NCBI GenBank assembly: GCA_023091665.1
Contig: JALJCQ010000013.1
Coordinates: 2,728,001 to 2,792,000, forward strand
DNA: 64,000 nt
Direction: 5' to 3'
From: Pythium myriotylum
Taxonomy: Eukaryota; Oomycota; Peronosporomycetes; Pythiales; Pythiaceae
Both the position numbers and the translations under genes were made by a program. The notes under the pieces are model-generated. The model saw only the letters and a program-made list of their open reading frames with translations. It was not told the DNA's origin and made no database searches. This document shows positions 3-64,000 of this stretch, in pieces (position 1 is the first letter of the stretch; the number at the start of each line of letters is the position of its first letter).

Positions 3-2723
3 GTGGGTTCGTCGAATGCTCAGGGTGCCGGCGGCGACGTGTCGGTGGACGGAGGGTCTTCTATGGGTTCGACGGGCGGATCGGTGCTTGTGAGCAGCGG
101 CAGCGGGTCCGTGTCAAGTGGCAAGGCGGTGTTGTCTTCGCGTCCAGGCGGTTCGTCTACGAGCGGCGAGGTGCGCGTGGAGAGCGGTTCAAGCAATGGC
201 GTGAGCGGTTCCGTAGTCGTCGGCAGTGGCGCAGGTGCCGCGGGTGCTGGCTCAGTGAGTGTGGTCGGTGGCTCGTCTTCCGGTGGTGCCGGCGCGAATG
301 TGTCTGTTGTTGGCGGTGTGTCGACGGTATCGATCGGTGGCAATGTGACGGTCGCGAGTGGCGTCGGTGCGGGTGCAAGCGGCACAGTGGTGGTATCGAG
401 TGCGTCTGTGTCGGGCACGAGTGCAAGCGGCGCGGTGTCAGTCGGCAGCGGATCTAGCGCGGGCGGTGTGAGCGGCTCTGTGATCGTATCATCTGGTGAG
501 TCTCTTCAGCGGAGTGGCGGCAGCGTGCAGGTGGTCGGCGGGAAGGCATCATCGACAGGCGGCGATGTGAGTGTGTCAGGCGGCGCCGGTTCGTCGGTTG
601 GAGGCGGTTCGGTGTCTTTGTCTGGTGGTGCTGGTTCACTTGGCGGCGAGGTGCGTGTGTCGGGTGGTACGAGTGCCTCGGACACCGGAGCTGCCGTGCG
701 CGTCGTGAGTGGCGTGGGATCTGTGTCATCGTCAAGCGGCTCTGTGGAGGTGTCAAGCGCTGTTGGTTCGAGCTCTGGGAACGTGTCATTGTCTTCTGGT
801 GGTGCGAGTGGCGCGTCTGCTGGACACATCACTTTGTCTGTGGGGTCTTCTCCGCAGACGGGTGGTAGTGTGAAGGTGTCTGGTGGTTCGAGCGCTGGAT
901 CTGTCGCTGGCGATGTCACGTTGACCGGCGGGGCGTCTACATCGAGTGCGTCGGGCAGCGGTGTGTCTGCTGGCGTCGTTCGCGTGGTTGGCGGCGAGTC
1001 GACGGGTTCTGTTGACGGCGGTGCCGTGTCGTTGTCTGGAGGATCTGGCGTGAGCCGTGGCGGTTCTGTGTCGGTTGTGAGTGGCAGCGGATCTGGCGCG
1101 TCGACGAGCAGCGGTAACGTGACGGTGGGTTCATCGGTTGTGTCTGGTCAGGGCGTGAGCGGGTCATTGGCGATCGGAAGTGGCGCGTCTTCGCAGGGTG
1201 TGTCCGGATCTGTGTCGGTGGGCAGCGGTGACTCGAGCGGCGCGTCGACAGGCGATGTGAGCGTGTCTGCTGGCGTGAGCGTTGGTGCTGGTGGCGGTTC
1301 GCTGTCGTTGTCTGGCGGTTCGAGTGGCGGTGCTTCTGTGGGCGGCGCTGTGAGCGTGCGGAGCGGAGGGTCTTCAGGTGCGGCAAGCGGCGTGTTGAGG
1401 CTCTCAAGTGAAGCCGGAAGCGGTTCGTTCGGCAGTGGTAACACATCCGTGGGCACGGGCGTGACGACGTCTGGTTCGTCTGGTTCAGTCACGTTGTCGT
1501 CTGGAGCGAGTACGAGTGGCGTGAGTGGAGCCGTGTCGATCGGTAGCGGCGACGCGAGCTCATCGGACGCCGGCGATGTGTCTATCTCTGGTGGCTCGAC
1601 GAGTAGTGCGGCACACCGTGGCGGCTCCGTGTCGGTGACGACTGGTCCGGATGGAACTGTGCATATCGTGACGAGCAGTCGTACGAGCAACGTTGGTGGC
1701 GACGTGTCTGTGTCTGCTGGCGGCAGCAGCAGCTCTAGCGCAGGTGGTGCAAGCGTGCGTGTTTCGGGCGGGTCGTTGGATGCGTCGAGCGGTGTGGCGG
1801 GCGGAGTGTCTTTGTCTGGTGGCGTCGCATCGAGTGCATCTGGAACGTCCGTGGGCGGCGCTGTGTCTGTCGTGGGCGGTTCGAGTGCGTCCAGCGTCGG
1901 CGGGACTGTGTCGTTGTCGTCTGGATCGGGCGTGCAGGCGAGTGGTCGTGTGGAGTTGTTGAGCGGCGCTGGTGGGTCTGGCGTCGGTTCTAGCGGCAAC
2001 GTGTCTGTGGGCAGTGGTTCTACGACTGGGTCATCTTCGTCGTCTGGTCAGTTGACGTTGTTGTCAGGAGACTCTCCGAGTGGCAGCAGTGGCGTTGTGT
2101 CGATCGGATCTGGTGCGTCTAGCGCGACAGCAGGCGGCGTGTCTGTGGTCGGTGGCGTGAGCAGCGTTGGTTCTGGCGGTTCGTTGTCGTTGTCGAGCGG
2201 TTCTGGCAGCGTTGGAAGTGGCTCGGTGACGGTGTCTTCGTCTGCGAGCACTGGTAGTGCAGTGTCTGGCGGTGTGAAGTTGACGTCTGGATCGACTGTG
2301 AGCGCGGGGTCCGGTTCGGTGGAGGTCGGCGGCGGCTCTAGCAGCAGTTCAAGCGGCGGTGGCGTGTCTGTCGTCGGTGGCGCGAGCTCGAGTGGTCCCG
2401 GTGGCGCATTGTCGATGTCGGGTGGAGCGTCGTCGTCGGGTTCATCTGGTGGTGTGTCCGTGACTGGCGGTGATTCATCTGGAAGCGGATCTGGTGGCAA
2501 CGTGTTGTTGGCGAGCGGCGTCGCATCTGGCAGTGGTGCGGGCGGCAACGTGACGATTCGCAGTGGTGCGTCATCGAGTGGCGTGTCTGGCGCGGTGTCG
2601 TTGTCGAGTGGCTCTGGGGGTGCCGTGAGCATCGTGCAGGGCGACAGCAGCGGCGTTGGTGGTGACGTGTCGATCAGTGGTGGAGCCGTGGACAGTGCGT
2701 TGTCAGCGCAGTCGTTGAAGATC
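3..2723 (+). repeat. Array 1 unit 1 (full)
   Basis: Begins with the peptide VGSSNAQGAGG and ends before the next copy of it. Private variant: ACT instead of ACG for Thr at 1641-1643. End marker GCC (Ala) at 2685-2687. Confidence 0.95.
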
Positions 2724-5700
2724 GTGGGTTCGTCGAATGCTCAGGGTGCCGGCGGCGACGTGTCGGTGGACGGAGGGTCTTCTATGGGTTCGACGGGCGG
2801 ATCGGTGCTTGTGAGCAGCGGCAGCGGGTCCGTGTCAAGTGGCAAGGCGGTGTTGTCTTCGCGTCCAGGCGGTTCGTCTACGAGCGGCGAGGTGCGCGTG
2901 GAGAGCGGTTCAAGCAATGGCGTGAGCGGTTCCGTAGTCGTCGGCAGTGGCGCAGGTGCCGCGGGTGCTGGCTCAGTGAGTGTGGTCGGTGGCTCGTCTT
3001 CCGGTGGTGCCGGCGCGAATGTGTCTGTTGTTGGCGGTGTGTCGACGGTATCGATCGGTGGCAATGTGACGGTCGCGAGTGGCGTCGGTGCGGGTGCAAG
3101 CGGCACAGTGGTGGTATCGAGTGCGTCTGTGTCGGGCACGAGTGCAAGCGGCGCGGTGTCAGTCGGCAGCGGATCTAGCGCGGGCGGTGTGAGCGGCTCT
3201 GTGATCGTATCATCTGGTGAGTCTCTTCAGCGGAGTGGCGGCAGCGTGCAGGTGGTCGGCGGGAAGGCATCATCGACAGGCGGCGATGTGAGTGTGTCAG
3301 GCGGCGCCGGTTCGTCGGTTGGAGGCGGTTCGGTGTCTTTGTCTGGTGGTGCTGGTTCACTTGGCGGCGAGGTGCGTGTGTCGGGTGGTACGAGTGCCTC
3401 GGACACCGGAGCTGCCGTGCGCGTCGTGAGTGGCGTGGGATCTGTGTCATCGTCAAGCGGCTCTGTGGAGGTGTCAAGCGCTGTTGGTTCGAGCTCTGGG
3501 AACGTGTCATTGTCTTCTGGTGGTGCGAGTGGCGCGTCTGCTGGACACATCACTTTGTCTGTGGGGTCTTCTCCGCAGACGGGTGGTAGTGTGAAGGTGT
3601 CTGGTGGTTCGAGCGCTGGATCTGTCGCTGGCGATGTCACGTTGACCGGCGGGGCGTCTACATCGAGTGCGTCGGGCAGCGGTGTGTCTGCTGGCGTCGT
3701 TCGCGTGGTTGGCGGCGAGTCGACGGGTTCTGTTGACGGCGGTGCCGTGTCGTTGTCTGGAGGATCTGGCGTGAGCCGTGGCGGTTCTGTGTCGGTTGTG
3801 AGTGGCAGCGGATCTGGCGCGTCGACGAGCAGCGGTAACGTGACGGTGGGTTCATCGGTTGTGTCTGGTCAGGGCGTGAGCGGGTCATTGGCGATCGGAA
3901 GTGGCGCGTCTTCGCAGGGTGTGTCCGGATCTGTGTCGGTGGGCAGCGGTGACTCGAGCGGCGCGTCGACAGGCGATGTGAGCGTGTCTGCTGGCGTGAG
4001 CGTTGGTGCTGGTGGCGGTTCGCTGTCGTTGTCTGGCGGTTCGAGTGGCGGTGCTTCTGTGGGCGGCGCTGTGAGCGTGCGGAGCGGAGGGTCTTCAGGT
4101 GCGGCAAGCGGCGTGTTGAGGCTCTCAAGTGAAGCCGGAAGCGGTTCGTTCGGCAGTGGTAACACATCCGTGGGCACGGGCGTGACGACGTCTGGTTCGT
4201 CTGGTTCAGTCACGTTGTCGTCTGGAGCGAGTACGAGTGGCGTGAGTGGAGCCGTGTCGATCGGTAGCGGCGACGCGAGCTCATCGGACGCCGGCGATGT
4301 GTCTATCTCTGGTGGCTCGACGAGTAGTGCGGCACACCGTGGCGGCTCCGTGTCGGTGACGACGGGTCCGGATGGAACTGTGCATATCGTGACGAGCAGT
4401 CGTACGAGCAACGTTGGTGGCGACGTGTCTGTGTCTGCTGGCGGCAGCAGCAGCTCTAGCGCAGGTGGTGCAAGCGTGCGTGTTTCGGGCGGGTCGTTGG
4501 ATGCGTCGAGCGGTGTGGCGGGCGGAGTGTCTTTGTCTGGTGGCGTCGCATCGAGTGCATCTGGAACGTCCGTGGGCGGCGCTGTGTCTGTCGTGGGCGG
4601 TTCGAGTGCGTCCAGCGTCGGCGGGACTGTGTCGTTGTCGTCTGGATCGGGCGTGCAGGCGAGTGGTCGTGTGGAGTTGTTGAGCGGCGCTGGTGGGTCT
4701 GGCGTCGGTTCTAGCGGCAACGTGTCTGTGGGCAGTGGTTCTACGACTGGGTCATCTTCGTCGTCTGGTCAGTTGACGTTGTTGTCAGGAGACTCTCCGA
4801 GTGGCAGCAGTGGCGTTGTGTCGATCGGATCTGGTGCGTCTAGCGCGACAGCAGGCGGCGTGTCTGTGGTCGGTGGCGTGAGCAGCGTTGGTTCTGGCGG
4901 TTCGTTGTCGTTGTCGAGCGGTTCTGGCAGCGTTGGAAGTGGCTCGGTGACGGTGTCTTCGTCTGCGAGCACTGGTAGTGCAGTGTCTGGCGGTGTGAAG
5001 TTGACGTCTGGATCGACTGTGAGCGCGGGGTCCGGTTCGGTGGAGGTCGGCGGCGGCTCTAGCAGCAGTTCAAGCGGCGGTGGCGTGTCTGTCGTCGGTG
5101 GCGCGAGCTCGAGTGGTCCCGGTGGCGCATTGTCGATGTCGGGTGGAGCGTCGTCGTCGGGTTCATCTGGTGGTGTGTCCGTGACTGGCGGTGATTCATC
5201 TGGAAGCGGATCTGGTGGCAACGTGTTGTTGGCGAGCGGCGTCGCATCTGGCAGTGGTGCGGGCGGCAACGTGACGATTCGCAGTGGTGCGTCATCGAGT
5301 GGCGTGTCTGGCGCGGTGTCGTTGTCGAGTGGCTCTGGGGGTGCCGTGAGCATCGTGCAGGGCGACAGCAGCGGCGTTGGTGGTGACGTGTCGATCAGTG
5401 GTGGAGCTGTGGACAGTGCGTTGTCAGCGCAGTCGTTGAAGATCGTGGGTTCGTCGAATGCTCAGGGTGCCGGCGGCGACGTGTCGGTGGACGGAGGGTC
5501 TTCTATGGGTTCGACGGGCGGATCGGTGCTTGTGAGCAGCGGCAGCGGGTCTGCTTCAAGTGGTGTTGATGGCTCTTCAGGTTCGATCAGTTTCGGGACT
5601 GCGGTTGGCACTCGTAGCGGGTCTATTAGTGTTGCTGTTGGCGCAGGCGCTGTGGAAAGTGGAAGTGTTTCGCTTCGTGCTGGCGATGTCACGGGTTCTA

Positions 5701-44700: not shown

Positions 44701-47700
44701 GTGGCGGTTCGCTGTCGTTGTCTGGCGGTTCGAGTGGCGGTGCTTCTGTGGGCGGCGCTGTGAGCGTGCGGAGCGGAGGGTCTTCAGGTGCGGCAAGCGG
44801 CGTGTTGAGGCTCTCAAGTGAAGCCGGAAGCGGTTCGTTCGGCAGTGGTAACACATCCGTGGGCACGGGCGTGACGACGTCTGGTTCGTCTGGTTCAGTC
44901 ACGTTGTCGTCTGGAGCGAGTACGAGTGGCGTGAGTGGAGCCGTGTCGATCGGTAGCGGCGACGCGAGCTCATCGGACGCCGGCGATGTGTCTATCTCTG
45001 GTGGCTCGACGAGTAGTGCGGCACACCGTGGCGGCTCCGTGTCGGTGACGACGGGTCCGGATGGAACTGTGCATATCGTGACGAGCAGTCGTACGAGCAA
45101 CGTTGGTGGCGACGTGTCTGTGTCTGCTGGCGGCAGCAGCAGCTCTAGCGCAGGTGGTGCAAGCGTGCGTGTTTCGGGCGGGTCGTTGGATGCGTCGAGC
45201 GGTGTGGCGGGCGGAGTGTCTTTGTCTGGTGGCGTCGCATCGAGTGCATCTGGAACGTCCGTGGGCGGCGCTGTGTCTGTCGTGGGCGGTTCGAGTGCGT
45301 CCAGCGTTGGCGGGACTGTGTCGTTGTCGTCTGGATCGGGCGTGCAGGCGAGTGGTCGTGTGGAGTTGTTGAGCGGCGCTGGTGGGTCTGGCGTCGGTTC
45401 TAGCGGCAACGTGTCTGTGGGCAGTGGTTCTACGACTGGGTCATCTTCGTCGTCTGGTCAGTTGACGTTGTTGTCAGGAGACTCTCCGAGTGGCAGCAGT
45501 GGCGTTGTGTCGATCGGATCTGGTGCGTCTAGCGCGACAGCAGGCGGCGTGTCTGTGGTCGGTGGCGTGAGCAGCGTTGGTTCTGGCGGTTCGTTGTCGT
45601 TGTCGAGCGGTTCTGGCAGCGTTGGAAGTGGCTCGGTGACGGTGTCTTCGTCTGCGAGCACTGGTAGTGCAGTGTCTGGCGGTGTGAAGTTGACGTCTGG
45701 ATCGACTGTGAGCGCGGGGTCCGGTTCGGTGGAGGTCGGCGGCGGCTCTAGCAGCAGTTCAAGCGGCGGTGGCGTGTCTGTCGTCGGTGGCGCGAGCTCG
45801 AGTGGTCCCGGTGGCGCATTGTCGATGTCGGGTGGAGCGTCGTCGTCGGGTTCATCTGGTGGTGTGTCCGTGACTGGCGGTGATTCATCTGGAAGCGGAT
45901 CTGGTGGCAACGTGTTGTTGGCGAGCGGCGTCGCATCTGGCAGTGGTGCGGGCGGCAACGTGACGATTCGCAGTGGTGCGTCATCGAGTGGCGTGTCTGG
46001 CGCGGTGTCGTTGTCCGGGGTTTCTAATGTTTCGGTCTCGAGCGAGTTGGGTTCTTTGCTGTTTAATGCGACAGTGTCTAATTCAAGTGTTGGCGTCGGG
46101 TTTGGCGGAGTAGATCTGTTATCCGGCACAGGGAATGTTACGGCATCGGCGAAGACGATTATTCATCAGGCTTCTGAAGAATCATTATTTGAGAACGCAA
46201 ACTCGAATACGACTGATGGAATCGTGTTTCGGGTCCGTAAAGACCAACTCGTCAGCACTGTTCCCGCTCAAATTCCCCAAGTCATATCGCCCTCTGATCG
46301 ACGTATCAAAACTGACATTGAGGATGTCGACGAAGATGATGTTCTTCAACGATTGCAATCGCTGGAGATAAAACAGTACCGCTACACGGATGAATGGCGT
46401 CGCATTCGTGGAATGAATGATACTGTAGTTCGCGGAGTGATCGCCCAGCAAGCGAGGGAAACTTTCCCTGAATATGTTGAAGTGCAATCTGAGTTTACGC
46501 TGAAGGAGAGCGCCTTTACGCTGAAGGAGTTTCATCAAGTTGACAAGCAAAAAATTGTTTTGGATTTGGTTGCGGCCTTACACGCTCAACACCGGCGTTT
46601 CAAGGTAGGACCAAACTCTCCCGAAAAGAGTGGTGATATGACGATATCGACTGCGGCCTCGAGCGGATATAGGGGAGGTGTCTCGGATAGTGCATCAGGT
46701 TCTATCAGTATTCAGTCTGGGGCGTCACCGGGCTCAAAGTCAGGTAATGTGCGACTTTCGAGTGGTGACTCAAGTCAAGCTGGGAGTGTTTCCATCGGAG
46801 TCGGCGAGAGTACCGGTGCAGGCGGCGGTATTGCTGTGGAGGCTGGTCTTGCGAGTGGGAGTGGTGGTGTCGGCGGTTCAGTGTCTATAGCCTCAGGCGG
46901 GAGTGACCTAGGTTCTAGCGGGAGCGTCAGCGTGGGATCAGTGAATGGTGGAGCAGCTGGTGATAGCGGCGATGTTCTTGTCGGAAGCGGAGATACTACC
47001 CTGGGCTCCTCTGGATGGCTCGACGTAAGCACTGGAGATTCGACAAGTGGAACTGCTGGTAGCATCGGCATTCGCTCAGGATCAAGCACATCATCCAGTG
47101 GAGGCAACGTATCCGTCATCGCAGGATCCTCTGGCTCTCCTGCACCGGGCGGCGGTATTTCTATCCTCTCTGGTGGCAGTTCTAGTGGTTCCACTGGTTC
47201 TGTGTCGTTGGCCTCCTCTAGCGCAACTAAGGGAGTGACGAGTGGCAACGTGACCGTTGGATCTGGAGATTCAAGTTTTGCTGCTGGACCTACTGTACTT
47301 ACTTCGGGCAACTCCGGAACAAGCACTGGAGGTTCTGTCATCATTGGTGGCGGTGCAAGCGAAAAGAGCTCAGGTGGGAGTATTTCGATTGGATCAGGAG
47401 CGAGTCGATCTGGCAGTTCGGGATCACTGTCTGTGAAGTCTGCAGATTCGACGAAGGGGGCAAGTGGAAACGTCACACTCGGGTCTGGAAATTGTGCGGG
47501 GGGCGTATCTGGAAGCCTCGTTGTTGGAATTGGCCTAACTGACTCGTCTGCCGTCGGGGGTCTCGTAATTGCTGGAGGTGACTCTGCTGCTGCTTCTGGA
47601 ACCGGTGGGAGTGTGCAACTAACCGCTGGAGAGTCCAACGAAGGTGGGGCCATGTCAGTTTCTGCAGGTTCAGGCAAGGTCAAAGGTGGCTCAATGACGC

Positions 47701-50700
47701 TCAGCTCTGGTCGTGGAGCGACTGGCGTTGGTGGAAATGTTATAATCAGTACGCCTGCGACAGATTCCATGAGTTCCGCGGGAGCTATCAGTATTTCAAC
47801 TGGAAGAGGTTCGCAAGGCGTGGTCGATGTTGTATCAGGTGGTGGAAGCTCAACAGATACCTCTGGCGCAGTCAATGTGCGAAGTAACCAAGCCAAGGCT
47901 GGTTCAAGCGGTCCCGTAAGCATCAGTTCCGGGAACTCCTTGAGCTCTACATCTGGTTCCGTTTCCGTAGCTGTGGGCAATAGTTCGACATCAGCTGGAT
48001 CGCTCAGGTTGAGCAGTGGTAACGGTCTCGGTGCTAGTGGTGGTGCGTTTTCCATCCAAGCAGGATCAAGCACTAACGCTGTCGGTGGTCGCGTTCTCGT
48101 TCAATCAGGAAGTGGAAGTCGATCGGGTTCTGTCAATGTGTCATCGGCACAATCCGATTTCGGTGATAGCGGGAGTGTTGATGTCCGTTCGGGTGAAGGA
48201 CGCCAAGGAGTGTCGGGCTCTATCTCTATTGGTTCTGGACCAGCGCGCGACTCCGCAGGTGACGTGGTTCTCATCGGGGGACGTGCATCCTCTCGAACAG
48301 GAGGCTTGATTTCACTCCAATCTGGGTCGAGTGATCGATCTGCCAGTGGTGAAATATCTGTCTTGTCGGCCAGCGTCGATACGTCTTCGGGGCGAGTATC
48401 TATGGGTTCAGGTTCTGCTGGAAAGGGCTCATCAGGGGCGCTGAGCCTTTCGACTGGAGACTCCACTACATCAACCGGAAATATGACTTTCACTGTCGGA
48501 CGGAGCAGCCGGTTGGCTGGGTCAGTTGCAGTTGCTGCTGGAGACAGCGTAGCAGCAACTGGCGGGCTTATCTCATTTGTTGCTGGCGCAAGTACCTCAG
48601 TCACCGGTGGTTCGGTTGCTCTTTTATCCGGTGCTGGTCTTGCTCAAACCTCGGGGATGGTTCGCGTTGCGACCTCAGATTCGAGAACATCTGGAACCAC
48701 AGAGATTCTAACAGGCGAGGCCAATGACCGGAGTGGTGCTGTCTCACTACGGAGCGGATCGTCTACGAAGGGTCAAAGCGGCGACGTTATCGTCCGGTCG
48801 GGTTCTAGCATGGGGGATGGTGGATTTGTCCGGGTCGGTGGGGGAGCTAGCTCAAGTGTTGGAGGTGGCATCGAAATCGCTTCTGGTGTTGGGATCGGGC
48901 GAGCTCAGTCGACAGGTAGTCTCCAAATTGTAACAGCCACGGCGACAGGACCCACAGCATCTGGCAACCTCACTGTTATGACTGGTGACACAGTCGCCTC
49001 CAACGCTGGCTTTGTTAGCATTTCTTCTGGGGATTCTATTGATGGTATGGCAGGAGCAGTCTCGGTTCAAGCTGGGGCCAGTCCTAAAGGAGGAGGTGAT
49101 CTTAGTGTCATGGGTGGCGACGCGTCGAGATCGACGGCCGGCGCCGTCACAGTTAGTGCGGGCGGAGGACAAGTAGGTGGATCGGCCAGTGTCTCATCTG
49201 GGCAAGGATCGCTCTCCTCTGGCAACTCAACCATTGAAACCGGCCGTAGCAATAGCTCGAGTGGCACACTCAATCTTCGCACAGGATTTGCTGCTAAGGG
49301 AGACTCGGGCATAGTCAGTCTATCAACTGGTACCGCAAGCGGGAAAGCAGGTGATATCGTTGTAACTGCGGGGAAATCGTCCGCGCAACTTGGTGGAGAT
49401 ATTGATATCCTCGCTGGAAACGCATCTGCAAACGGTGGATCTGTCACCCTTACGAGTGGATACGCCGACGCCGGTGTAAGTGGCTCTGTGAACGTAACAA
49501 CCATCGATGGCGGACGTGCGACAGCTACTGGGTCGATTCGTATTCAGACGGGAGTTTCCGATGTTGGGACGGGTACTGTGACTGTATCCTCGGGAGACTC
49601 GACGGCACGTCAAGGTGGCAATGTATCACTCCTTGCTGGACAAAGTGCAGCTCGGATCGGATCAAACGTGACAGTTCTAGCTGGTGCAAATACGTTAACT
49701 GGCGGAAGTGTTCTGGTTTCGGCTGGGTCAAGTTCAACAACCAGTGGTGGATTTTCGATGTTCGTATCTGGTCAAGGTCTCAGCTCCAGTGGAAATGTTT
49801 CCGTTGGCTCCGCTCCCTCAAGCGAAATTGGGACATCTGGTGGCGTTACAGTATCAAGTGGTTCGGCTTCGTCTGGAACGAGTGGTTCTGTAATTATTTC
49901 CACGGGAGATTCATCGGACAGATCTGCAGGTTCGGTCACTTTGAAAGTCGGGTCTGGTGTGACAAGCGCTGGGGGGATGGTAAATATCTCGGCAGGTTCA
50001 AGCACCATGAGCACCGGAGGGGGAGTTCTTGTCTCCAGCGGAATGGGCGTGAGTTCCACAAGTGGATCTGTTTCCGTACAATCTTCAGTCTCAGGACTCC
50101 AAGGTCGCTCGGGAGATGTTGCCCTGACGTCTGGAAGTGCTACCTCAGATGCTTCGGGCGTTCTATCCATTCGATCTGGAAACTCACGGGATTCTCGGGC
50201 AGGGAATGTGGAGTTAGTGGTCGGGGTTAGCGGTGTGACTCCAGGAGGTGACCTTATTGGGATCGCTGGCAACAGCAGCGATGTTGGTGGTACGGTTGAC
50301 TTGAGAGGAGGACTCGGGACGCAGACAGGTGGTCAGGTTCGAGTTCAATCTGGAGCAAGCAAGACATCAACATCAGGATCTGTTTCGCTGTCCACACCAG
50401 ATTCTGGTCCAACTGGACAGACCGGATCAATATCTCTTGTAACAGGCTCTAGTCTGAATGGCCCCAGTGGGATCGCTACAATCAAAACCGGCGATGCAAC
50501 TATGGGCAACGGCGGTTCTATCCTTCTCATTTCTGGGAGGGGTAGTCTCGGAGAGGGAGGAAACATAACAGCCTTCGCAGGAGCAACAATTGATCCGAAA
50601 GCATCGGGTGGAAGGGTGTCGATTAAAACGGGCGAAAGCACCTATAGTTCGAGTGGTGATGTTGCCGTCTCAAGCGCAGATGCCGGATCATCAGGCGCGT

Positions 50701-53700
50701 CAGGAAAAGCAACGTTGGCGACAGGTTCGGCAAAAGCTGGAACTGCTGGTGATGTGTTAATTAACACTGGGAGCAGTACCGGAGGCACCGGAGGAGCTAT
50801 CAGCTTGATCGTAGGAGCCGGAAATAGCGGAGCAGGAGGACCAATTGTCTTACGCGCAGGGGACACTTCCGGAGCAGGAAGTACTGGAGGTGCAATCACG
50901 TTGACCGGCGGCGTGGGTGTGACGACGGGCGGTTCGATCAGCTTGGCGAGCGGTGCTGGTCGCACGACGACGAGCGGCGACATTTCGTTGTCGACGTCGA
51001 CGTCTGGGTCGAACGGTGTGAGCGGCAGTGTGTCTTTGCTGAGTGGTTCGTCTAGCAAGGGGTCAAGCGGGTCGGTGGCCGTGAGCTCTGGCGTGTCGAC
51101 CGGTGGAAGCGGTGGCGCGATCTCGTTGTCAGTGGGTACTGGCAACACCGGCGTGGGCGGCTCGATCTCGTTGAGCGCAGGCGACAGTGTGAGCAGCGGC
51201 ACGCCTGCGAGCGTGAGTGGTACCGGTGGTGCGGTCAGTGTGGTGAGTGGTCGTGGCATGTCTAGCACGAGTGGTGCGATCACGTTGGCTACTGGCGCGA
51301 GTGGTACTAGCGGTCTCTCCGGGTTGGTGAGCGTGAGCACTGGCAGCGCGACGGGCGACTCGAGCGGTGGGTTGTTGATCGGCAGTGGCAGCAGCGTTGG
51401 CGGCGCGGGTGGCTCGGTGCAAGTGACGGTGGGAACTGGCAGCGTGGGCACGGGTGGCAAGGTGTCGCTGACGGCAGGCGAGAGCTCCGATGCGTCCCCG
51501 CCGCCGTCGGTTCCGGCGGGCTCACCGCCTGCATCTCCGATCGCTGGGGGTGCGGTGGAGCTGACTGGTGGTGTTGGCAAGAGCTTGGGCGGCGCGATCA
51601 CGTTGACGAGTGGCGGTAGCGCGGCGAAGAGCGGCGACATCAGTGTGCAGTCGGCGTCTGCGCCTGCATCTCCGGTCACCACTGGCGTGAGTGGTGCGGT
51701 CAAGCTGGGCAGCGGTTCGTCGAAGAGTGGTCCGAGCGGTTCGTTGACTCTGTCGAGTGGCACGGCATCTCAGGGCAAGGGCGGAGACATCACGTTGTCG
51801 GTCGGAAGTGGCGACACTGGTACGGGCGGCGATGTGTTGGTGAGCGCTGGCGCGTCAAGCGCGACGAGTTCGACGGGCGGCAAGGTGTCTGTGTCAAGTG
51901 GCGTGGGCAGTGCTGGGAACAGCGGCGACGTGTCTGTGGTGACATCAGATGGCGGTTCGTCTGGCGTGTCGGGTATGCTGAGCTTGAGGACTGGCGCTGC
52001 GACGTCTGGCGCGGTGGGCGACGTGGTGGTGAGCACTGGTGCGAGCACGGGCGGTAACGGTGGATCGATCGGTCTGTCTGTGGGAGCTGGCAACAGCGGC
52101 GACGGCGGATCGATCGACCTGCAGTCTGGAGACCAGGTTGGCTCGAGTGGCAAGGGCGGCGCGATCACGTTGACCGGCGGCGTGGGTGTGACGACGGGCG
52201 GTTCGATCAGCTTGGCGAGCGGTGCTGGTCGCACGACGACGAGCGGCGACATTTCGTTGTCGACGTCGACGTCTGGGTCGAACGGTGTGAGCGGCAGTGT
52301 GTCTTTGCTGAGTGGTTCGTCTAGCAAGGGGTCAAGCGGGTCGGTGGCCGTGAGCTCTGGCGTGTCGACCGGTGGAAGCGGTGGCGCGATCTCGTTGTCA
52401 GTGGGTACTGGCAACACCGGCGTGGGCGGCTCGATCTCGTTGAGCGCAGGCGACAGTGTGAGCAGCGGCACGCCTGCGAGCGTGAGTGGTACCGGTGGTG
52501 CGGTCAGTGTGGTGAGTGGTCGTGGCATGTCTAGCACGAGTGGTGCGATCACGTTGGCTACTGGCGCGAGTGGTACTAGCGGTCTCTCCGGGTTGGTGAG
52601 CGTGAGCACTGGCAGCGCGACGGGCGACTCGAGCGGTGGGTTGTTGATCGGCAGTGGCAGCAGCGTTGGCGGCGCGGGTGGCTCGGTGCAAGTGACGGTG
52701 GGAACTGGCAGCGTGGGCACGGGTGGCAAGGTGTCGCTGACGGCAGGCGAGAGCTCCGATGCGTCCCCGCCGCCGTCGGTTCCGGCGGGCTCACCGCCTG
52801 CATCTCCGATCGCTGGGGGTGCGGTGGAGCTGACTGGTGGTGTTGGCAAGAGCTTGGGCGGCGCGATCACGTTGACGAGTGGCGGTAGCGCGGCGAAGAG
52901 CGGCGACATCAGTGTGCAGTCGGCGTCTGCGCCTGCATCTCCGGTCACCACTGGCGTGAGTGGTGCGGTCAAGCTGGGCAGCGGTTCGTCGAAGAGTGGT
53001 CCGAGCGGTTCGTTGACTCTGTCGAGTGGCACGGCATCTCAGGGCAAGGGCGGAGACATCACGTTGTCGGTCGGAAGTGGCGACACTGGTACGGGCGGCG
53101 ATGTGTTGGTGAGCGCTGGCGCGTCAAGCGCGACGAGTTCGACGGGCGGCAAGGTGTCTGTGTCAAGTGGCGTGGGCAGTGCTGGGAACAGCGGCGACGT
53201 GTCTGTGGTGACATCAGATGGCGGTTCGTCTGGCGTGTCGGGTATGCTGAGCTTGAGGACTGGCGCTGCGACGTCTGGCGCGGTGGGCGACGTGGTGGTG
53301 AGCACTGGTGCGAGCACGGGCGGTAACGGTGGATCGATCGGTCTGTCTGTGGGAGCTGGCAACAGCGGCGACGGCGGATCGATCGACCTGCAGTCTGGAG
53401 ACCAGGTTGGCTCGAGTGGCAAGGGCGGCGCGATCACGTTGACCGGCGGCGTGGGTGTGACGACGGGCGGTTCGATCAGCTTGGCGAGCGGTGCTGGTCG
53501 CACGACGACGAGCGGCGACATTTCGTTGTCGACGTCGACGTCTGGGTCGAACGGTGTGAGCGGCAGTGTGTCTTTGCTGAGTGGTTCGTCTAGCAAGGGG
53601 TCAAGCGGGTCGGTGGCCGTGAGCTCTGGCGTGTCGACCGGTGGAAGCGGTGGCGCGATCTCGTTGTCAGTGGGTACTGGCAACACCGGCGTGGGCGGCT

Positions 53701-56700
53701 CGATCTCGTTGAGCGCAGGCGACAGTGTGAGCAGCGGCACGCCTGCGAGCGTGAGTGGTACCGGTGGTGCGGTCAGTGTGGTGAGTGGTCGTGGCATGTC
53801 TAGCACGAGTGGTGCGATCACGTTGGCTACTGGCGCGAGTGGTACTAGCGGTCTCTCCGGGTTGGTGAGCGTGAGCACTGGCAGCGCGACGGGCGACTCG
53901 AGCGGTGGGTTGTTGATCGGCAGTGGCAGCAGCGTTGGCGGCGCGGGTGGCTCGGTGCAAGTGACGGTGGGAACTGGCAGCGTGGGCACGGGTGGCAAGG
54001 TGTCGCTGACGGCAGGCGAGAGCTCCGATGCGTCCCCGCCGCCGTCGGTTCCGGCGGGCTCACCGCCTGCATCTCCGATCGCTGGGGGTGCGGTGGAGCT
54101 GACTGGTGGTGTTGGCAAGAGCTTGGGCGGCGCGATCACGTTGACGAGTGGCGGTAGCGCGGCGAAGAGCGGCGACATCAGTGTGCAGTCGGCGTCTGCG
54201 CCTGCATCTCCGGTCACCACTGGCGTGAGTGGTGCGGTCAAGCTGGGCAGCGGTTCGTCGAAGAGTGGTCCGAGCGGTTCGTTGACTCTGTCGAGTGGCA
54301 CGGCATCTCAGGGCAAGGGCGGAGACATCACGTTGTCGGTCGGAAGTGGCGACACTGGTACGGGCGGCGATGTGTTGGTGAGCGCTGGCGCGTCAAGCGC
54401 GACGAGTTCGACGGGCGGCAAGGTGTCTGTGTCAAGTGGCGTGGGCAGTGCTGGGAACAGCGGCGACGTGTCTGTGGTGACATCAGATGGCGGTTCGTCT
54501 GGCGTGTCGGGTATGCTGAGCTTGAGGACTGGCGCTGCGACGTCTGGCGCGGTGGGCGACGTGGTGGTGAGCACTGGTGCGAGCACGGGCGGTAACGGTG
54601 GATCGATCGGTCTGTCTGTGGGAGCTGGCAACAGCGGCGACGGCGGATCGATCGACCTGCAGTCTGGAGACCAGGTTGGCTCGAGTGGCAAGGGCGGCGC
54701 GATCACGTTGACCGGCGGCGTGGGTGTGACGACGGGCGGTTCGATCAGCTTGGCGAGCGGTGCTGGTCGCACGACGACGAGCGGCGACATTTCGTTGTCG
54801 ACGTCGACGTCTGGGTCGAACGGTGTGAGCGGCAGTGTGTCTTTGCTGAGTGGTTCGTCTAGCAAGGGGTCAAGCGGGTCGGTGGCCGTGAGCTCTGGCG
54901 TGTCGACCGGTGGAAGCGGTGGCGCGATCTCGTTGTCAGTGGGTACTGGCAACACCGGCGTGGGCGGCTCGATCTCGTTGAGCGCAGGCGACAGTGTGAG
55001 CAGCGGCACGCCTGCGAGCGTGAGTGGTACCGGTGGTGCGGTCAGTGTGGTGAGTGGTCGTGGCATGTCTAGCACGAGTGGTGCGATCACGTTGGCTACT
55101 GGCGCGAGTGGTACTAGCGGTCTCTCCGGGTTGGTGAGCGTGAGCACTGGCAGCGCGACGGGCGACTCGAGCGGTGGGTTGTTGATCGGCAGTGGCAGCA
55201 GCGTTGGCGGCGCGGGTGGCTCGGTGCAAGTGACGGTGGGAACTGGCAGCGTGGGCACGGGTGGCAAGGTGTCGCTGACGGCAGGCGAGAGCTCCGATGC
55301 GTCCCCGCCGCCGTCGGTTCCGGCGGGCTCACCGCCTGCATCTCCGATCGCTGGGGGTGCGGTGGAGCTGACTGGTGGTGTTGGCAAGAGCTTGGGCGGC
55401 GCGATCACGTTGACGAGTGGCGGTAGCGCGGCGAAGAGCGGCGACATCAGTGTGCAGTCGGCGTCTGCGCCTGCATCTCCGGTCACCACTGGCGTGAGTG
55501 GTGCGGTCAAGCTGGGCAGCGGTTCGTCGAAGAGTGGTCCGAGCGGTTCGTTGACTCTGTCGAGTGGCACGGCATCTCAGGGCAAGGGCGGAGACATCAC
55601 GTTGTCGGTCGGAAGTGGCGACACTGGTACGGGCGGCGATGTGTTGGTGAGCGCTGGCGCGTCAAGCGCGACGAGTTCGACGGGCGGCAAGGTGTCTGTG
55701 TCAAGTGGCGTGGGCAGTGCTGGGAACAGCGGCGACGTGTCTGTGGTGACATCAGATGGCGGTTCGTCTGGCGTGTCGGGTATGCTGAGCTTGAGGACTG
55801 GCGCTGCGACGTCTGGCGCGGTGGGCGACGTGGTGGTGAGCACTGGTGCGAGCACGGGCGGTAACGGTGGATCGATCGGTCTGTCTGTGGGAGCTGGCAA
55901 CAGCGGCGACGGCGGATCGATCGACCTGCAGTCTGGAGACCAGGTTGGCTCGAGTGGCAAGGGCGGCGCGATCACGTTGACCGGCGGCGTGGGTGTGACG
56001 ACGGGCGGTTCGATCAGCTTGGCGAGCGGTGCTGGTCGCACGACGACGAGCGGCGACATTTCGTTGTCGACGTCGACGTCTGGGTCGAACGGTGTGAGCG
56101 GCAGTGTGTCTTTGCTGAGTGGTTCGTCTAGCAAGGGGTCAAGCGGGTCGGTGGCCGTGAGCTCTGGCGTGTCGACCGGTGGAAGCGGTGGCGCGATCTC
56201 GTTGTCAGTGGGTACTGGCAACACCGGCGTGGGCGGCTCGATCTCGTTGAGCGCAGGCGACAGTGTGAGCAGCGGCACGCCTGCGAGCGTGAGTGGTACC
56301 GGTGGTGCGGTCAGTGTGGTGAGTGGTCGTGGCATGTCTAGCACGAGTGGTGCGATCACGTTGGCTACTGGCGCGAGTGGTACTAGCGGTCTCTCCGGGT
56401 TGGTGAGCGTGAGCACTGGCAGCGCGACGGGCGACTCGAGCGGTGGGTTGTTGATCGGCAGTGGCAGCAGCGTTGGCGGCGCGGGTGGCTCGGTGCAAGT
56501 GACGGTGGGAACTGGCAGCGTGGGCACGGGTGGCAAGGTGTCGCTGACGGCAGGCGAGAGCTCCGATGCGTCCCCGCCGCCGTCGGTTCCGGCGGGCTCA
56601 CCGCCTGCATCTCCGATCGCTGGGGGTGCGGTGGAGCTGACTGGTGGTGTTGGCAAGAGCTTGGGCGGCGCGATCACGTTGACGAGTGGCGGTAGCGCGG

Positions 56701-59700
56701 CGAAGAGCGGCGACATCAGTGTGCAGTCGGCGTCTGCGCCTGCATCTCCGGTCACCACTGGCGTGAGTGGTGCGGTCAAGCTGGGCAGCGGTTCGTCGAA
56801 GAGTGGTCCGAGCGGTTCGTTGACTCTGTCGAGTGGCACGGCATCTCAGGGCAAGGGCGGAGACATCACGTTGTCGGTCGGAAGTGGCGACACTGGTACG
56901 GGCGGCGATGTGTTGGTGAGCGCTGGCGCGTCAAGCGCGACGAGTTCGACGGGCGGCAAGGTGTCTGTGTCAAGTGGCGTGGGCAGTGCTGGGAACAGCG
57001 GCGACGTGTCTGTGGTGACATCAGATGGCGGTTCGTCTGGCGTGTCGGGTATGCTGAGCTTGAGGACTGGCGCTGCGACGTCTGGCGCGGTGGGCGACGT
57101 GGTGGTGAGCACTGGTGCGAGCACGGGCGGTAACGGTGGATCGATCGGTCTGTCTGTGGGAGCTGGCAACAGCGGCGACGGCGGATCGATCGACCTGCAG
57201 TCTGGAGACCAGGTTGGCTCGAGTGGCAAGGGCGGCGCGATCACGTTGACCGGCGGCGTGGGTGTGACGACGGGCGGTTCGATCAGCTTGGCGAGCGGTG
57301 CTGGTCGCACGACGACGAGCGGCGACATTTCGTTGTCGACGTCGACGTCTGGGTCGAACGGTGTGAGCGGCAGTGTGTCTTTGCTGAGTGGTTCGTCTAG
57401 CAAGGGGTCAAGCGGGTCGGTGGCCGTGAGCTCTGGCGTGTCGACCGGTGGAAGCGGTGGCGCGATCTCGTTGTCAGTGGGTACTGGCAACACCGGCGTG
57501 GGCGGCTCGATCTCGTTGAGCGCAGGCGACAGTGTGAGCAGCGGCACGCCTGCGAGCGTGAGTGGTACCGGTGGTGCGGTCAGTGTGGTGAGTGGTCGTG
57601 GCATGTCTAGCACGAGTGGTGCGATCACGTTGGCTACTGGCGCGAGTGGTACTAGCGGTCTCTCCGGGTTGGTGAGCGTGAGCACTGGCAGCGCGACGGG
57701 CGACTCGAGCGGTGGGTTGTTGATCGGCAGTGGCAGCAGCGTTGGCGGCGCGGGTGGCTCGGTGCAAGTGACGGTGGGAACTGGCAGCGTGGGCACGGGT
57801 GGCAAGGTGTCGCTGACGGCAGGCGAGAGCTCCGATGCGTCCCCGCCGCCGTCGGTTCCGGCGGGCTCACCGCCTGCATCTCCGATCGCTGGGGGTGCGG
57901 TGGAGCTGACTGGTGGTGTTGGCAAGAGCTTGGGCGGCGCGATCACGTTGACGAGTGGCGGTAGCGCGGCGAAGAGCGGCGACATCAGTGTGCAGTCGGC
58001 GTCTGCGCCTGCATCTCCGGTCACCACTGGCGTGAGTGGTGCGGTCAAGCTGGGCAGCGGTTCGTCGAAGAGTGGTCCGAGCGGTTCGTTGACTCTGTCG
58101 AGTGGCACGGCATCTCAGGGCAAGGGCGGAGACATCACGTTGTCGGTCGGAAGTGGCGACACTGGTACGGGCGGCGATGTGTTGGTGAGCGCTGGCGCGT
58201 CAAGCGCGACGAGTTCGACGGGCGGCAAGGTGTCTGTGTCAAGTGGCGTGGGCAGTGCTGGGAACAGCGGCGACGTGTCTGTGGTGACATCAGATGGCGG
58301 TTCGTCTGGCGTGTCGGGTATGCTGAGCTTGAGGACTGGCGCTGCGACGTCTGGCGCGGTGGGCGACGTGGTGGTGAGCACTGGTGCGAGCACGGGCGGT
58401 AACGGTGGATCGATCGGTCTGTCTGTGGGAGCTGGCAACAGCGGCGACGGCGGATCGATCGACCTGCAGTCTGGAGACCAGGTTGGCTCGAGTGGCAAGG
58501 GCGGCGCGATCACGTTGACCGGCGGCGTGGGTGTGACGACGGGCGGTTCGATCAGCTTGGCGAGCGGTGCTGGTCGCACGACGACGAGCGGCGACATTTC
58601 GTTGTCGACGTCGACGTCTGGGTCGAACGGTGTGAGCGGCAGTGTGTCTTTGCTGAGTGGTTCGTCTAGCAAGGGGTCAAGCGGGTCGGTGGCCGTGAGC
58701 TCTGGCGTGTCGACCGGTGGAAGCGGTGGCGCGATCTCGTTGTCAGTGGGTACTGGCAACACCGGCGTGGGCGGCTCGATCTCGTTGAGCGCAGGCGACA
58801 GTGTGAGCAGCGGCACGCCTGCGAGCGTGAGTGGTACCGGTGGTGCGGTCAGTGTGGTGAGTGGTCGTGGCATGTCTAGCACGAGTGGTGCGATCACGTT
58901 GGCTACTGGCGCGAGTGGTACTAGCGGTCTCTCCGGGTTGGTGAGCGTGAGCACTGGCAGCGCGACGGGCGACTCGAGCGGTGGGTTGTTGATCGGCAGT
59001 GGCAGCAGCGTTGGCGGCGCGGGTGGCTCGGTGCAAGTGACGGTGGGAACTGGCAGCGTGGGCACGGGTGGCAAGGTGTCGCTGACGGCAGGCGAGAGCT
59101 CCGATGCGTCCCCGCCGCCGTCGGTTCCGGCGGGCTCACCGCCTGCATCTCCGATCGCTGGGGGTGCGGTGGAGCTGACTGGTGGTGTTGGCAAGAGCTT
59201 GGGCGGCGCGATCACGTTGACGAGTGGCGGTAGCGCGGCGAAGAGCGGCGACATCAGTGTGCAGTCGGCGTCTGCGCCTGCATCTCCGGTCACCACTGGC
59301 GTGAGTGGTGCGGTCAAGCTGGGCAGCGGTTCGTCGAAGAGTGGTCCGAGCGGTTCGTTGACTCTGTCGAGTGGCACGGCATCTCAGGGCAAGGGCGGAG
59401 ACATCACGTTGTCGGTCGGAAGTGGCGACACTGGTACGGGCGGCGATGTGTTGGTGAGCGCTGGCGCGTCAAGCGCGACGAGTTCGACGGGCGGCAAGGT
59501 GTCTGTGTCAAGTGGCGTGGGCAGTGCTGGGAACAGCGGCGACGTGTCTGTGGTGACATCAGATGGCGGTTCGTCTGGCGTGTCGGGTATGCTGAGCTTG
59601 AGGACTGGCGCTGCGACGTCTGGCGCGGTGGGCGACGTGGTGGTGAGCACTGGTGCGAGCACGGGCGGTAACGGTGGATCGATCGGTCTGTCTGTGGGAG

Positions 59701-62700
59701 CTGGCAACAGCGGCGACGGCGGATCGATCGACCTGCAGTCTGGAGACCAGGTTGGCTCGAGTGGCAAGGGCGGCGCGATCACGTTGACCGGCGGCGTGGG
59801 TGTGACGACGGGCGGTTCGATCAGCTTGGCGAGCGGTGCTGGTCGCACGACGACGAGCGGCGACATTTCGTTGTCGACGTCGACGTCTGGGTCGAACGGT
59901 GTGAGCGGCAGTGTGTCTTTGCTGAGTGGTTCGTCTAGCAAGGGGTCAAGCGGGTCGGTGGCCGTGAGCTCTGGCGTGTCGACCGGTGGAAGCGGTGGCG
60001 CGATCTCGTTGTCAGTGGGTACTGGCAACACCGGCGTGGGCGGCTCGATCTCGTTGAGCGCAGGCGACAGTGTGAGCAGCGGCACGCCTGCGAGCGTGAG
60101 TGGTACCGGTGGTGCGGTCAGTGTGGTGAGTGGTCGTGGCATGTCTAGCACGAGTGGTGCGATCACGTTGGCTACTGGCGCGAGTGGTACTAGCGGTCTC
60201 TCCGGGTTGGTGAGCGTGAGCACTGGCAGCGCGACGGGCGACTCGAGCGGTGGGTTGTTGATCGGCAGTGGCAGCAGCGTTGGCGGCGCGGGTGGCTCGG
60301 TGCAAGTGACGGTGGGAACTGGCAGCGTGGGCACGGGTGGCAAGGTGTCGCTGACGGCAGGCGAGAGCTCCGATGCGTCCCCGCCGCCGTCGGTTCCGGC
60401 GGGCTCACCGCCTGCATCTCCGATCGCTGGGGGTGCGGTGGAGCTGACTGGTGGTGTTGGCAAGAGCTTGGGCGGCGCGATCACGTTGACGAGTGGCGGT
60501 AGCGCGGCGAAGAGCGGCGACATCAGTGTGCAGTCGGCGTCTGCGCCTGCATCTCCGGTCACCACTGGCGTGAGTGGTGCGGTCAAGCTGGGCAGCGGTT
60601 CGTCGAAGAGTGGTCCGAGCGGTTCGTTGACTCTGTCGAGTGGCACGGCATCTCAGGGCAAGGGCGGAGACATCACGTTGTCGGTCGGAAGTGGCGACAC
60701 TGGTACGGGCGGCGATGTGTTGGTGAGCGCTGGCGCGTCAAGCGCGACGAGTTCGACGGGCGGCAAGGTGTCTGTGTCAAGTGGCGTGGGCAGTGCTGGG
60801 AACAGCGGCGACGTGTCTGTGGTGACATCAGATGGCGGTTCGTCTGGCGTGTCGGGTATGCTGAGCTTGAGGACTGGCGCTGCGACGTCTGGCGCGGTGG
60901 GCGACGTGGTGGTGAGCACTGGTGCGAGCACGGGCGGTAACGGTGGATCGATCGGTCTGTCTGTGGGAGCTGGCAACAGCGGCGACGGCGGATCGATCGA
61001 CCTGCAGTCTGGAGACCAGGTTGGCTCGAGTGGCAAGGGCGGCGCGATCACGTTGACCGGCGGCGTGGGTGTGACGACGGGCGGTTCGATCAGCTTGGCG
61101 AGCGGTGCTGGTCGCACGACGACGAGCGGCGACATTTCGTTGTCGACGTCGACGTCTGGGTCGAACGGTGTGAGCGGCAGTGTGTCTTTGCTGAGTGGTT
61201 CGTCTAGCAAGGGGTCAAGCGGGTCGGTGGCCGTGAGCTCTGGCGTGTCGACCGGTGGAAGCGGTGGCGCGATCTCGTTGTCAGTGGGTACTGGCAACAC
61301 CGGCGTGGGCGGCTCGATCTCGTTGAGCGCAGGCGACAGTGTGAGCAGCGGCACGCCTGCGAGCGTGAGTGGTACCGGTGGTGCGGTCAGTGTGGTGAGT
61401 GGTCGTGGCATGTCTAGCACGAGTGGTGCGATCACGTTGGCTACTGGCGCGAGTGGTACTAGCGGTCTCTCCGGGTTGGTGAGCGTGAGCACTGGCAGCG
61501 CGACGGGCGACTCGAGCGGTGGGTTGTTGATCGGCAGTGGCAGCAGCGTTGGCGGCGCGGGTGGCTCGGTGCAAGTGACGGTGGGAACTGGCAGCGTGGG
61601 CACGGGTGGCAAGGTGTCGCTGACGGCAGGCGAGAGCTCCGATGCGTCCCCGCCGCCGTCGGTTCCGGCGGGCTCACCGCCTGCATCTCCGATCGCTGGG
61701 GGTGCGGTGGAGCTGACTGGTGGTGTTGGCAAGAGCTTGGGCGGCGCGATCACGTTGACGAGTGGCGGTAGCGCGGCGAAGAGCGGCGACATCAGTGTGC
61801 AGTCGGCGTCTGCGCCTGCATCTCCGGTCACCACTGGCGTGAGTGGTGCGGTCAAGCTGGGCAGCGGTTCGTCGAAGAGTGGTCCGAGCGGTTCGTTGAC
61901 TCTGTCGAGTGGCACGGCATCTCAGGGCAAGGGCGGAGACATCACGTTGTCGGTCGGAAGTGGCGACACTGGTACGGGCGGCGATGTGTTGGTGAGCGCT
62001 GGCGCGTCAAGCGCGACGAGTTCGACGGGCGGCAAGGTGTCTGTGTCAAGTGGCGTGGGCAGTGCTGGGAACAGCGGCGACGTGTCTGTGGTGACATCAG
62101 ATGGCGGTTCGTCTGGCGTGTCGGGTATGCTGAGCTTGAGGACTGGCGCTGCGACGTCTGGCGCGGTGGGCGACGTGGTGGTGAGCACTGGTGCGAGCAC
62201 GGGCGGTAACGGTGGATCGATCGGTCTGTCTGTGGGAGCTGGCAACAGCGGCGACGGCGGATCGATCGACCTGCAGTCTGGAGACCAGGTTGGCTCGAGT
62301 GGCAAGGGCGGCGCGATCACGTTGACCGGCGGCGTGGGTGTGACGACGGGCGGTTCGATCAGCTTGGCGAGCGGTGCTGGTCGCACGACGACGAGCGGCG
62401 ACATTTCGTTGTCGACGTCGACGTCTGGGTCGAACGGTGTGAGCGGCAGTGTGTCTTTGCTGAGTGGTTCGTCTAGCAAGGGGTCAAGCGGGTCGGTGGC
62501 CGTGAGCTCTGGCGTGTCGACCGGTGGAAGCGGTGGCGCGATCTCGTTGTCAGTGGGTACTGGCAACACCGGCGTGGGCGGCTCGATCTCGTTGAGCGCA
62601 GGCGACAGTGTGAGCAGCGGCACGCCTGCGAGCGTGAGTGGTACCGGTGGTGCGGTCAGTGTGGTGAGTGGTCGTGGCATGTCTAGCACGAGTGGTGCGA

Positions 62701-63998: not shown

Positions 63999-64000
63999 AG
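63585..64000 (+). repeat. Array 2 unit 11 (cut by window end)
   Basis: First 416 bp of the unit, same as the earlier copies as far as it goes. The array and the open frame continue past the window. Confidence 0.93.

Follow-up and report, generated by a model that had tools for sequence, protein, structure and literature searches.

Domains of the Peptidase_S74 family (PF13884, hereafter S74) are self-cutting, trimer-forming chaperones that complete the tail fibres of phages, where they sit at the C-terminal end. Here we describe a gene running through a 64,000-nucleotide stretch of DNA (the window), placed by genome search at positions 2728001-2792000 of contig C13, plus strand. Its predicted product shares the S74 domain, a fold match and the positions of a Ser and a Lys with the phage endosialidase and neck appendage proteins and with the ICA domain of eukaryotic MYRF, but differs from these systems in that two internal copies would divide three very long fibre segments within one eukaryotic chain. 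In size it belongs with titin (~35,000 amino acids, aa) and PKZILLA-1 (~45,000 aa). Bacterial giant proteins of the Omnitrophota, described as reaching up to 85,800 aa (PMC12057145), fall into the same class; the present protein differs from all of these in composition, in domains and in its single 125-kb exon. We consider it probable that the window belongs to one real oomycete gene for a secreted or membrane-anchored fibrous protein of ~43,000-43,750 residues, assembled by its S74 domains and probably cut in three.

An initial annotation, made from the letters of the window, had proposed one uninterrupted plus-strand reading frame open at both ends. Not one stop interrupts the 21,332 codons of frame +3 (bases 3-63998); stops number 871, 439, 100, 479 and 557 in the other five frames, with a longest open stretch of 441 codons. 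For the genome-wide view, all 58.7 Mb (55 contigs) were searched and ~200 kb around the window were read. The frame turned out to be longer still, remaining open from C13:2696605 to 2821791 (41,729 codons) and then ending in TAG. Stops just beyond both edges, named at the outset as grounds against this reading, are absent: the frame runs on for 31.4 kb upstream, to where it ends beside a short intron with splice logic present, and for 29.8 kb downstream, to the TAG. Stop trinucleotides in the other two plus frames of the same 125 kb are frequent (TGA 1687/285, TAG 54/433, TAA 48/129), and in all 20 order-1 Markov simulations run at 125 kb the longest plus frame reached only 300-453 codons. Because the tract is repetitive (19,926 of 125,173 15-mers and 6,750 of 41,710 20-residue words are distinct), the independent stop-free evidence amounts to ~6,700 codons. 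Their freedom from stops is far beyond chance, and this is decisive. The features discussed below are as follows.

3..63998, plus strand: part of the giant gene's open frame (21,332 of 41,729 codons), from zero in-frame stops, the located stop and the exon model.
3..46044 (end approximate, start upstream of the window), plus strand: array 1, near-identical 907-aa (2,721 bp) units with 657- and 674-aa variants, from reference copies and anchors.
46257..46715 (Pfam core 46293-46478), plus strand: second S74 domain with C-terminal helix, from PF13884, 58% identity to the first S74 and a Foldseek match to 7dc3.
46716..50858, plus strand: ~15-residue coils outside the arrays, between S74 and array 2, from the sequence and whole-protein coil statistics.
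50859..63998 (runs beyond the window), plus strand: array 2, near-identical 423-aa (1,269 bp) units with 419-aa variants past the window, from anchors.
51773..64000, minus strand: recurrent antisense open stretches of 422 codons each in array 2, from an open-frame scan.
C13:2701786-2702250 (outside the window), plus strand: first S74 domain, from PF13884.

The same type of repeat continues upstream of the open frame in a different frame, to which it is joined through a 61-nt GT-AG intron, so the coding sequence does not start where the open frame does. A second, 71-nt GT-AG intron connects exon 2 to exon 1. The initial statement that there is no defensible intron thus holds within the window and fails upstream, where these two short introns place the gene start ahead of the open frame. 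In the resulting model, exons 1 and 2 are situated ~31-38 kb upstream of the window and exon 3, the last of three, spans C13:2696780-2821794 (125,015 bp). Translation from the first of 13 in-frame ATGs in exon 1 gives 43,752 aa and 3.81 MDa, and from the last, 43,035 aa. Exon 1 encodes several hydrophobic stretches and a Cys-rich PSI-like region of sub-threshold score (17.7 bits against a cut-off of 23.1). The early suggestion that the protein is among the largest known agrees with these lengths when they are set beside titin and PKZILLA-1; by those figures it would rank with the very largest eukaryotic proteins, and a 125-kb exon would be extraordinary. Elicitin matches numbered 135 in this genome and none in 14 control genomes; we take this family to be oomycete-specific, and the genome hence to be that of an oomycete (a fungus-like water mould relative). 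Among the seven relatives found with exon 2, the one organism named is the oomycete Lagenidium giganteum. Flanking GC content is 57-58%.

The Gly/Ser repeats reported in the frame were borne out by its composition (Ser 27.6%, Gly 25.6%, Val 13.1%) and by two tandem arrays. The repeat is built from coils of 15 residues with the pattern G-x-[VIL]-x-[VIL]-x-[STG]-G-x-[SA]-x-x-[GS]-x-[GS]. Coils of exact spacing number 800, of which 135 are distinct; among the distinct ones, positions 3 and 5 are 94% V/I/L/M/F, both being, like 1, 7 and 8, fixed by the search pattern, while the free positions 10, 13 and 15 hold Ser, Ala or Gly for the most part. Over the whole gene, array 1 has 27 unit anchors, spaced 22 times by 907, once by 657 and three times by 674 aa, and the window holds 18 in-register copies of a 300-base reference from it; array 2 has 32 anchors, spaced 25 times by 423 and six times by 419 aa. 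All spacings amount to whole codons, and no unit contains a stop or frame shift. These two arrays of near-identical units make up the bulk of the protein's length, and how many copies they hold exactly depends on the assembly. Tandem duplication of the 907- and 423-residue units would have set the great length of the protein.

Assembly may have misjudged that length, so that in the cell the arrays of a real gene are shorter or longer. Near-identical units are a hard case for assembly, and in array 2, where 6 of 25 full 423-aa units and 2 of 6 419-aa units are distinct sequences, 14 of the 25 are letter-identical to the consensus, 13 of these among the first 17. Array 1 speaks against a gross error, since 16 of its 22 full units are distinct and its length variants stand at defined places, which makes many units distinguishable. 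Even the non-array parts with one copy per unit would leave several thousand residues and two S74 domains. We regard a misjudged length as unlikely, if worth keeping in mind, and return to the giant chain as assembled.

Genome-wide there are 32 matches to S74, two of them in the giant frame. Both exceed the Pfam cut-off of 22 bits, the second, already claimed in the initial annotation, with 56.9 bits (E 1.6e-13) and the other, outside the window, with 50.8. On these scores both internal domains are assigned to PF13884. A PDB sequence search gave the MYRF ICA domain (7dc3) as the closest match, at E 5.6e-8 with the first S74 and E 4.4e-13 with a profile of six S74 sequences. Phage intramolecular chaperones come next among the solved relatives, 3gw6 and 3gud being matches in fold. 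Foldseek, run with a model of the second copy only, of moderate local confidence, returned 7dc3_B (E 3.2e-7, probability 1.00) and 3gud_B (probability 1.00, E 1.2e-3). In six pieces scanned with Pfam, exon 1 included (8,463 residues), S74 alone was above cut-off, with PSI and DUF2917 below. On these six pieces, which are part of the protein, we rejected a polyketide synthase or a titin-like giant. Four pieces compared with PHROGs gave weak matches only, of which the strongest (E 0.00067) was with a tail fibre family. A literature search on peptidase S74 in oomycetes found nothing, and the reports on giant proteins in Phytophthora, as far as their titles and abstract openings tell, do not concern this protein.

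Both copies contain the motif SDRRIK, with a Ser (codon 46293-46295 in the second copy, the putative nucleophile) and a Lys (codon 46308-46310) five residues apart, which we take to correspond to the self-cutting dyad of MYRF. The domains lie at residues 3765 and 27920 of the 43752 in the model and are thus internal rather than C-terminal. As folding chaperones the two S74 domains would bring three chains into register, and each, once folded, would probably cut the chain just ahead of itself; cutting is probable because both copies keep the Ser-Lys pair. The predicted products are three fibre segments of ~3,760, 24,160 and 15,830 residues, a layout that suggests a self-processing fibre polyprotein, a design we know from no other cell.

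Alternatively, S74 could assemble trimers without cutting, leaving the product as one unbroken chain that exon 1 holds in the membrane. The internal position of the domains, unlike that in phages, would fit this, as would a relative, P0001, that has no Ser at the cutting position in two of its three S74 copies. Against it, the two copies in the giant retain both dyad residues despite saturated synonymous sites (proportion of synonymous differences, pS, 0.80; of nonsynonymous differences, pN, 0.289). An uncut chain thus seems to us doubtful, and we continue with a chain cut in three.

Further comparisons point the same way as the S74 pair regarding constraint. The two types of array-2 unit give a ratio of nonsynonymous to synonymous rates (dN/dS) of 0.34, and the distinct variants of the 22 full array-1 units comprise 12 synonymous and 6 nonsynonymous changes where 30% synonymous are expected (p 0.0016, approximate, given shared copies and gene conversion). 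The codons of the giant frame thus bear the mark of purifying selection.

Homologue searches gave 2 relatives among 1,109 scored candidates with the first S74 and 7 among 7,986 with exon 2; the second S74 gave none among 758, where the length rule reached proteins of ~3,760-11,960 aa. In P0001 and P0002, S74 lies within a Ser/Gly repeat of the same type: P0001 has three internal copies, whose cutting positions hold Ser, Ala and Asp, and P0002 has one (Ser). Relatives thus show the internal placement too, with cutting perhaps lost in some copies, and the three P0001 copies offer a ready-made comparison for asking whether S74 cuts itself. In P0004-P0006 this repeat follows an EGF-rich N-terminus, and P0005, which begins with EGF domains, has S74 close to its C-terminal end. 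P0001, P0002, P0003 and P0005 share the Ser/Gly coil with the giant; all are far shorter (963-2,254 aa; some are probably fragments or products of automatic modelling), and none is named as a giant protein.

P0003 (N0F65_003511 of L. giganteum) contains a relative of the giant's C-terminus, ~40% identical over 151 and 61 positions, which runs straight on into a transportin-3-like protein; the Pfam matches of the latter are below cut-off. Directly comparable is the gene downstream of the giant on the same strand, which is 46% identical to the transportin-3-like part over 912 positions. The order of giant C-terminus and transportin-3 is thus conserved with L. giganteum. Since the two parts of P0003 correspond to separate neighbouring genes here, the public entry is likely a fused gene model joining the end of the giant's relative to transportin-3. 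Annotation can hide such genes: the L. giganteum relative is public only as an apparent transportin-3 fusion. A viral insertion was thought unlikely in view of the apparent introns, the adjacent host gene and the relative at the same place in L. giganteum.

The single-protein reading, and with it the initial claim of one protein-coding frame, is supported by the stop, the upstream splice logic, the selection on codons, the L. giganteum C-terminus with its shared neighbour, and S74 scores above cut-off. Several points weigh against it or parts of it. The gene is known here from DNA sequence and structure models alone; splice sites and exon 1, the least certain exon, were judged by eye, and exon 1 is single-copy in a search of its own genome. 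Array copy number depends on assembling repeats as alike as the 423-aa units. The 7dc3 fold match has a template modelling (TM) score of 0.55 by target length and a root-mean-square deviation of 5.5 Å. An AlphaFold2 S74 construct was poor, with a predicted local distance difference test (pLDDT) score of 37.8 overall and block means of 50-63 across most of S74, and the AlphaFold2 monomer of the repeat was of low confidence (mean pLDDT 54.3, almost no strands). Finally, Ser occupies the cutting position in one of the three P0001 copies only, so cutting is perhaps not general.

The chain, spliced to exon 1 as proposed and secreted, would make a micrometre-scale fibre, solenoid- or spiral-like in shape and built from ~2,800 short coils of Gly, Ser and Val. 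Its likely role is that of a structural filament outside the cell, such as a flagellar hair, part of a spore or cyst surface, or an adhesive thread. At 15 residues and 0.48 nm per coil, the latter a generic solenoid value, its contour is estimated at ~1.37 µm. Searched against the PDB, the repeat matched one entry weakly (E 0.029), which was taken as chance.

The repeat might instead be a trimeric triple beta-spiral as in the adenovirus fibre shaft, in which each repeat has 15 residues and spans ~1.3 nm, which would bring the fibre to ~3.7 µm instead of 1.4 µm. The identical period, the trimer-forming kind of S74 and the failure to obtain a confident AlphaFold2 monomer would all suit such a shaft. 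Each coil has, however, just two strongly hydrophobic positions (3 and 5), fewer than in the spiral motif, and small residues at positions 10, 13 and 15 are what a tight, flat solenoid would call for. On balance we think a beta-spiral rather unlikely and keep the single-chain solenoid.

Stramenopile mastigonemes resemble this system through the EGF-plus-repeat relatives, EGF-rich frames ~8 kb away and the length scale. For the tubular flagellar hairs of Phytophthora parasitica a length of 1.5 µm is stated (PMC9068220); this closeness in length and the EGF-plus-repeat relatives make a flagellar-hair role worth considering. Mastigoneme proteins of the same species are summarized as having three to four EGF domains while lacking a membrane segment, and one of them is of 64 kDa (PMC12223298). 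Among downy mildews that lack flagella, one has lost flagellar genes (PMC3471859). The giant differs from them in the hydrophobic stretches of exon 1 and in giving no EGF match in the six scanned pieces, which weighs against such a role. Moreover, if S74 cuts the chain, no single piece reaches 1.5 µm and the agreement in length could be chance. That a giant trimer, self-cut into three fibres and with array copy number setting filament length, could serve as ruler or core of the mastigoneme shaft is a speculation to which we give little credence. More generally, the gene raises the question of what it takes for a cell to transcribe, translate, export and fold a chain of 3.8 MDa.

That the tract is not translated as one protein, being a decayed or non-coding repeat free of stops by chance, finds some room in the strong compositional bias and in the gene being known from sequence, but is scarcely credible in the face of 0 stops in ~6,700 distinct codons beside frequent stops in the other frames, purifying selection, and the L. 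giganteum C-terminus relative with the same neighbour.

The initial annotation also remarked that gene callers might fill the region with antisense open reading frames. The antisense part of this is borne out: one minus frame has 10 open stretches of at least 400 codons in the window and the other two have none; those in array 2 would be a by-product of codon use rather than genes.

A smaller paralogue lies on the minus strand of contig 3 at ~597.5-634 kb (L042, L043). Its frame of 11,741 codons encodes the repeat seen in the giant and a C-terminal domain resembling that of the giant; none of the genome's 32 S74 matches falls in it, its two ends and a few match loci having been read. At C13:757924-769251, minus strand, frames of 5,417 and 5,054 codons match the EGF-plus-repeat protein P0005 and are perhaps a third giant fibre gene. 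The frames ~8 kb downstream of the giant gene (C13:2829651-2833507, minus strand) are EGF-rich and secreted-looking, and the genome has several more EGF-rich frames of ~600 aa. Other S74 genes (L002, L004, L006, L007 and L008) resemble, by eye, fibre genes of Polinton-type viral elements, and three of these five (L002, L007, L008) adjoin a shared gene of up to 337 aa. Elsewhere, elicitin matches are densely clustered at C1:2480441-2556984, and several of them score identically on the two strands.
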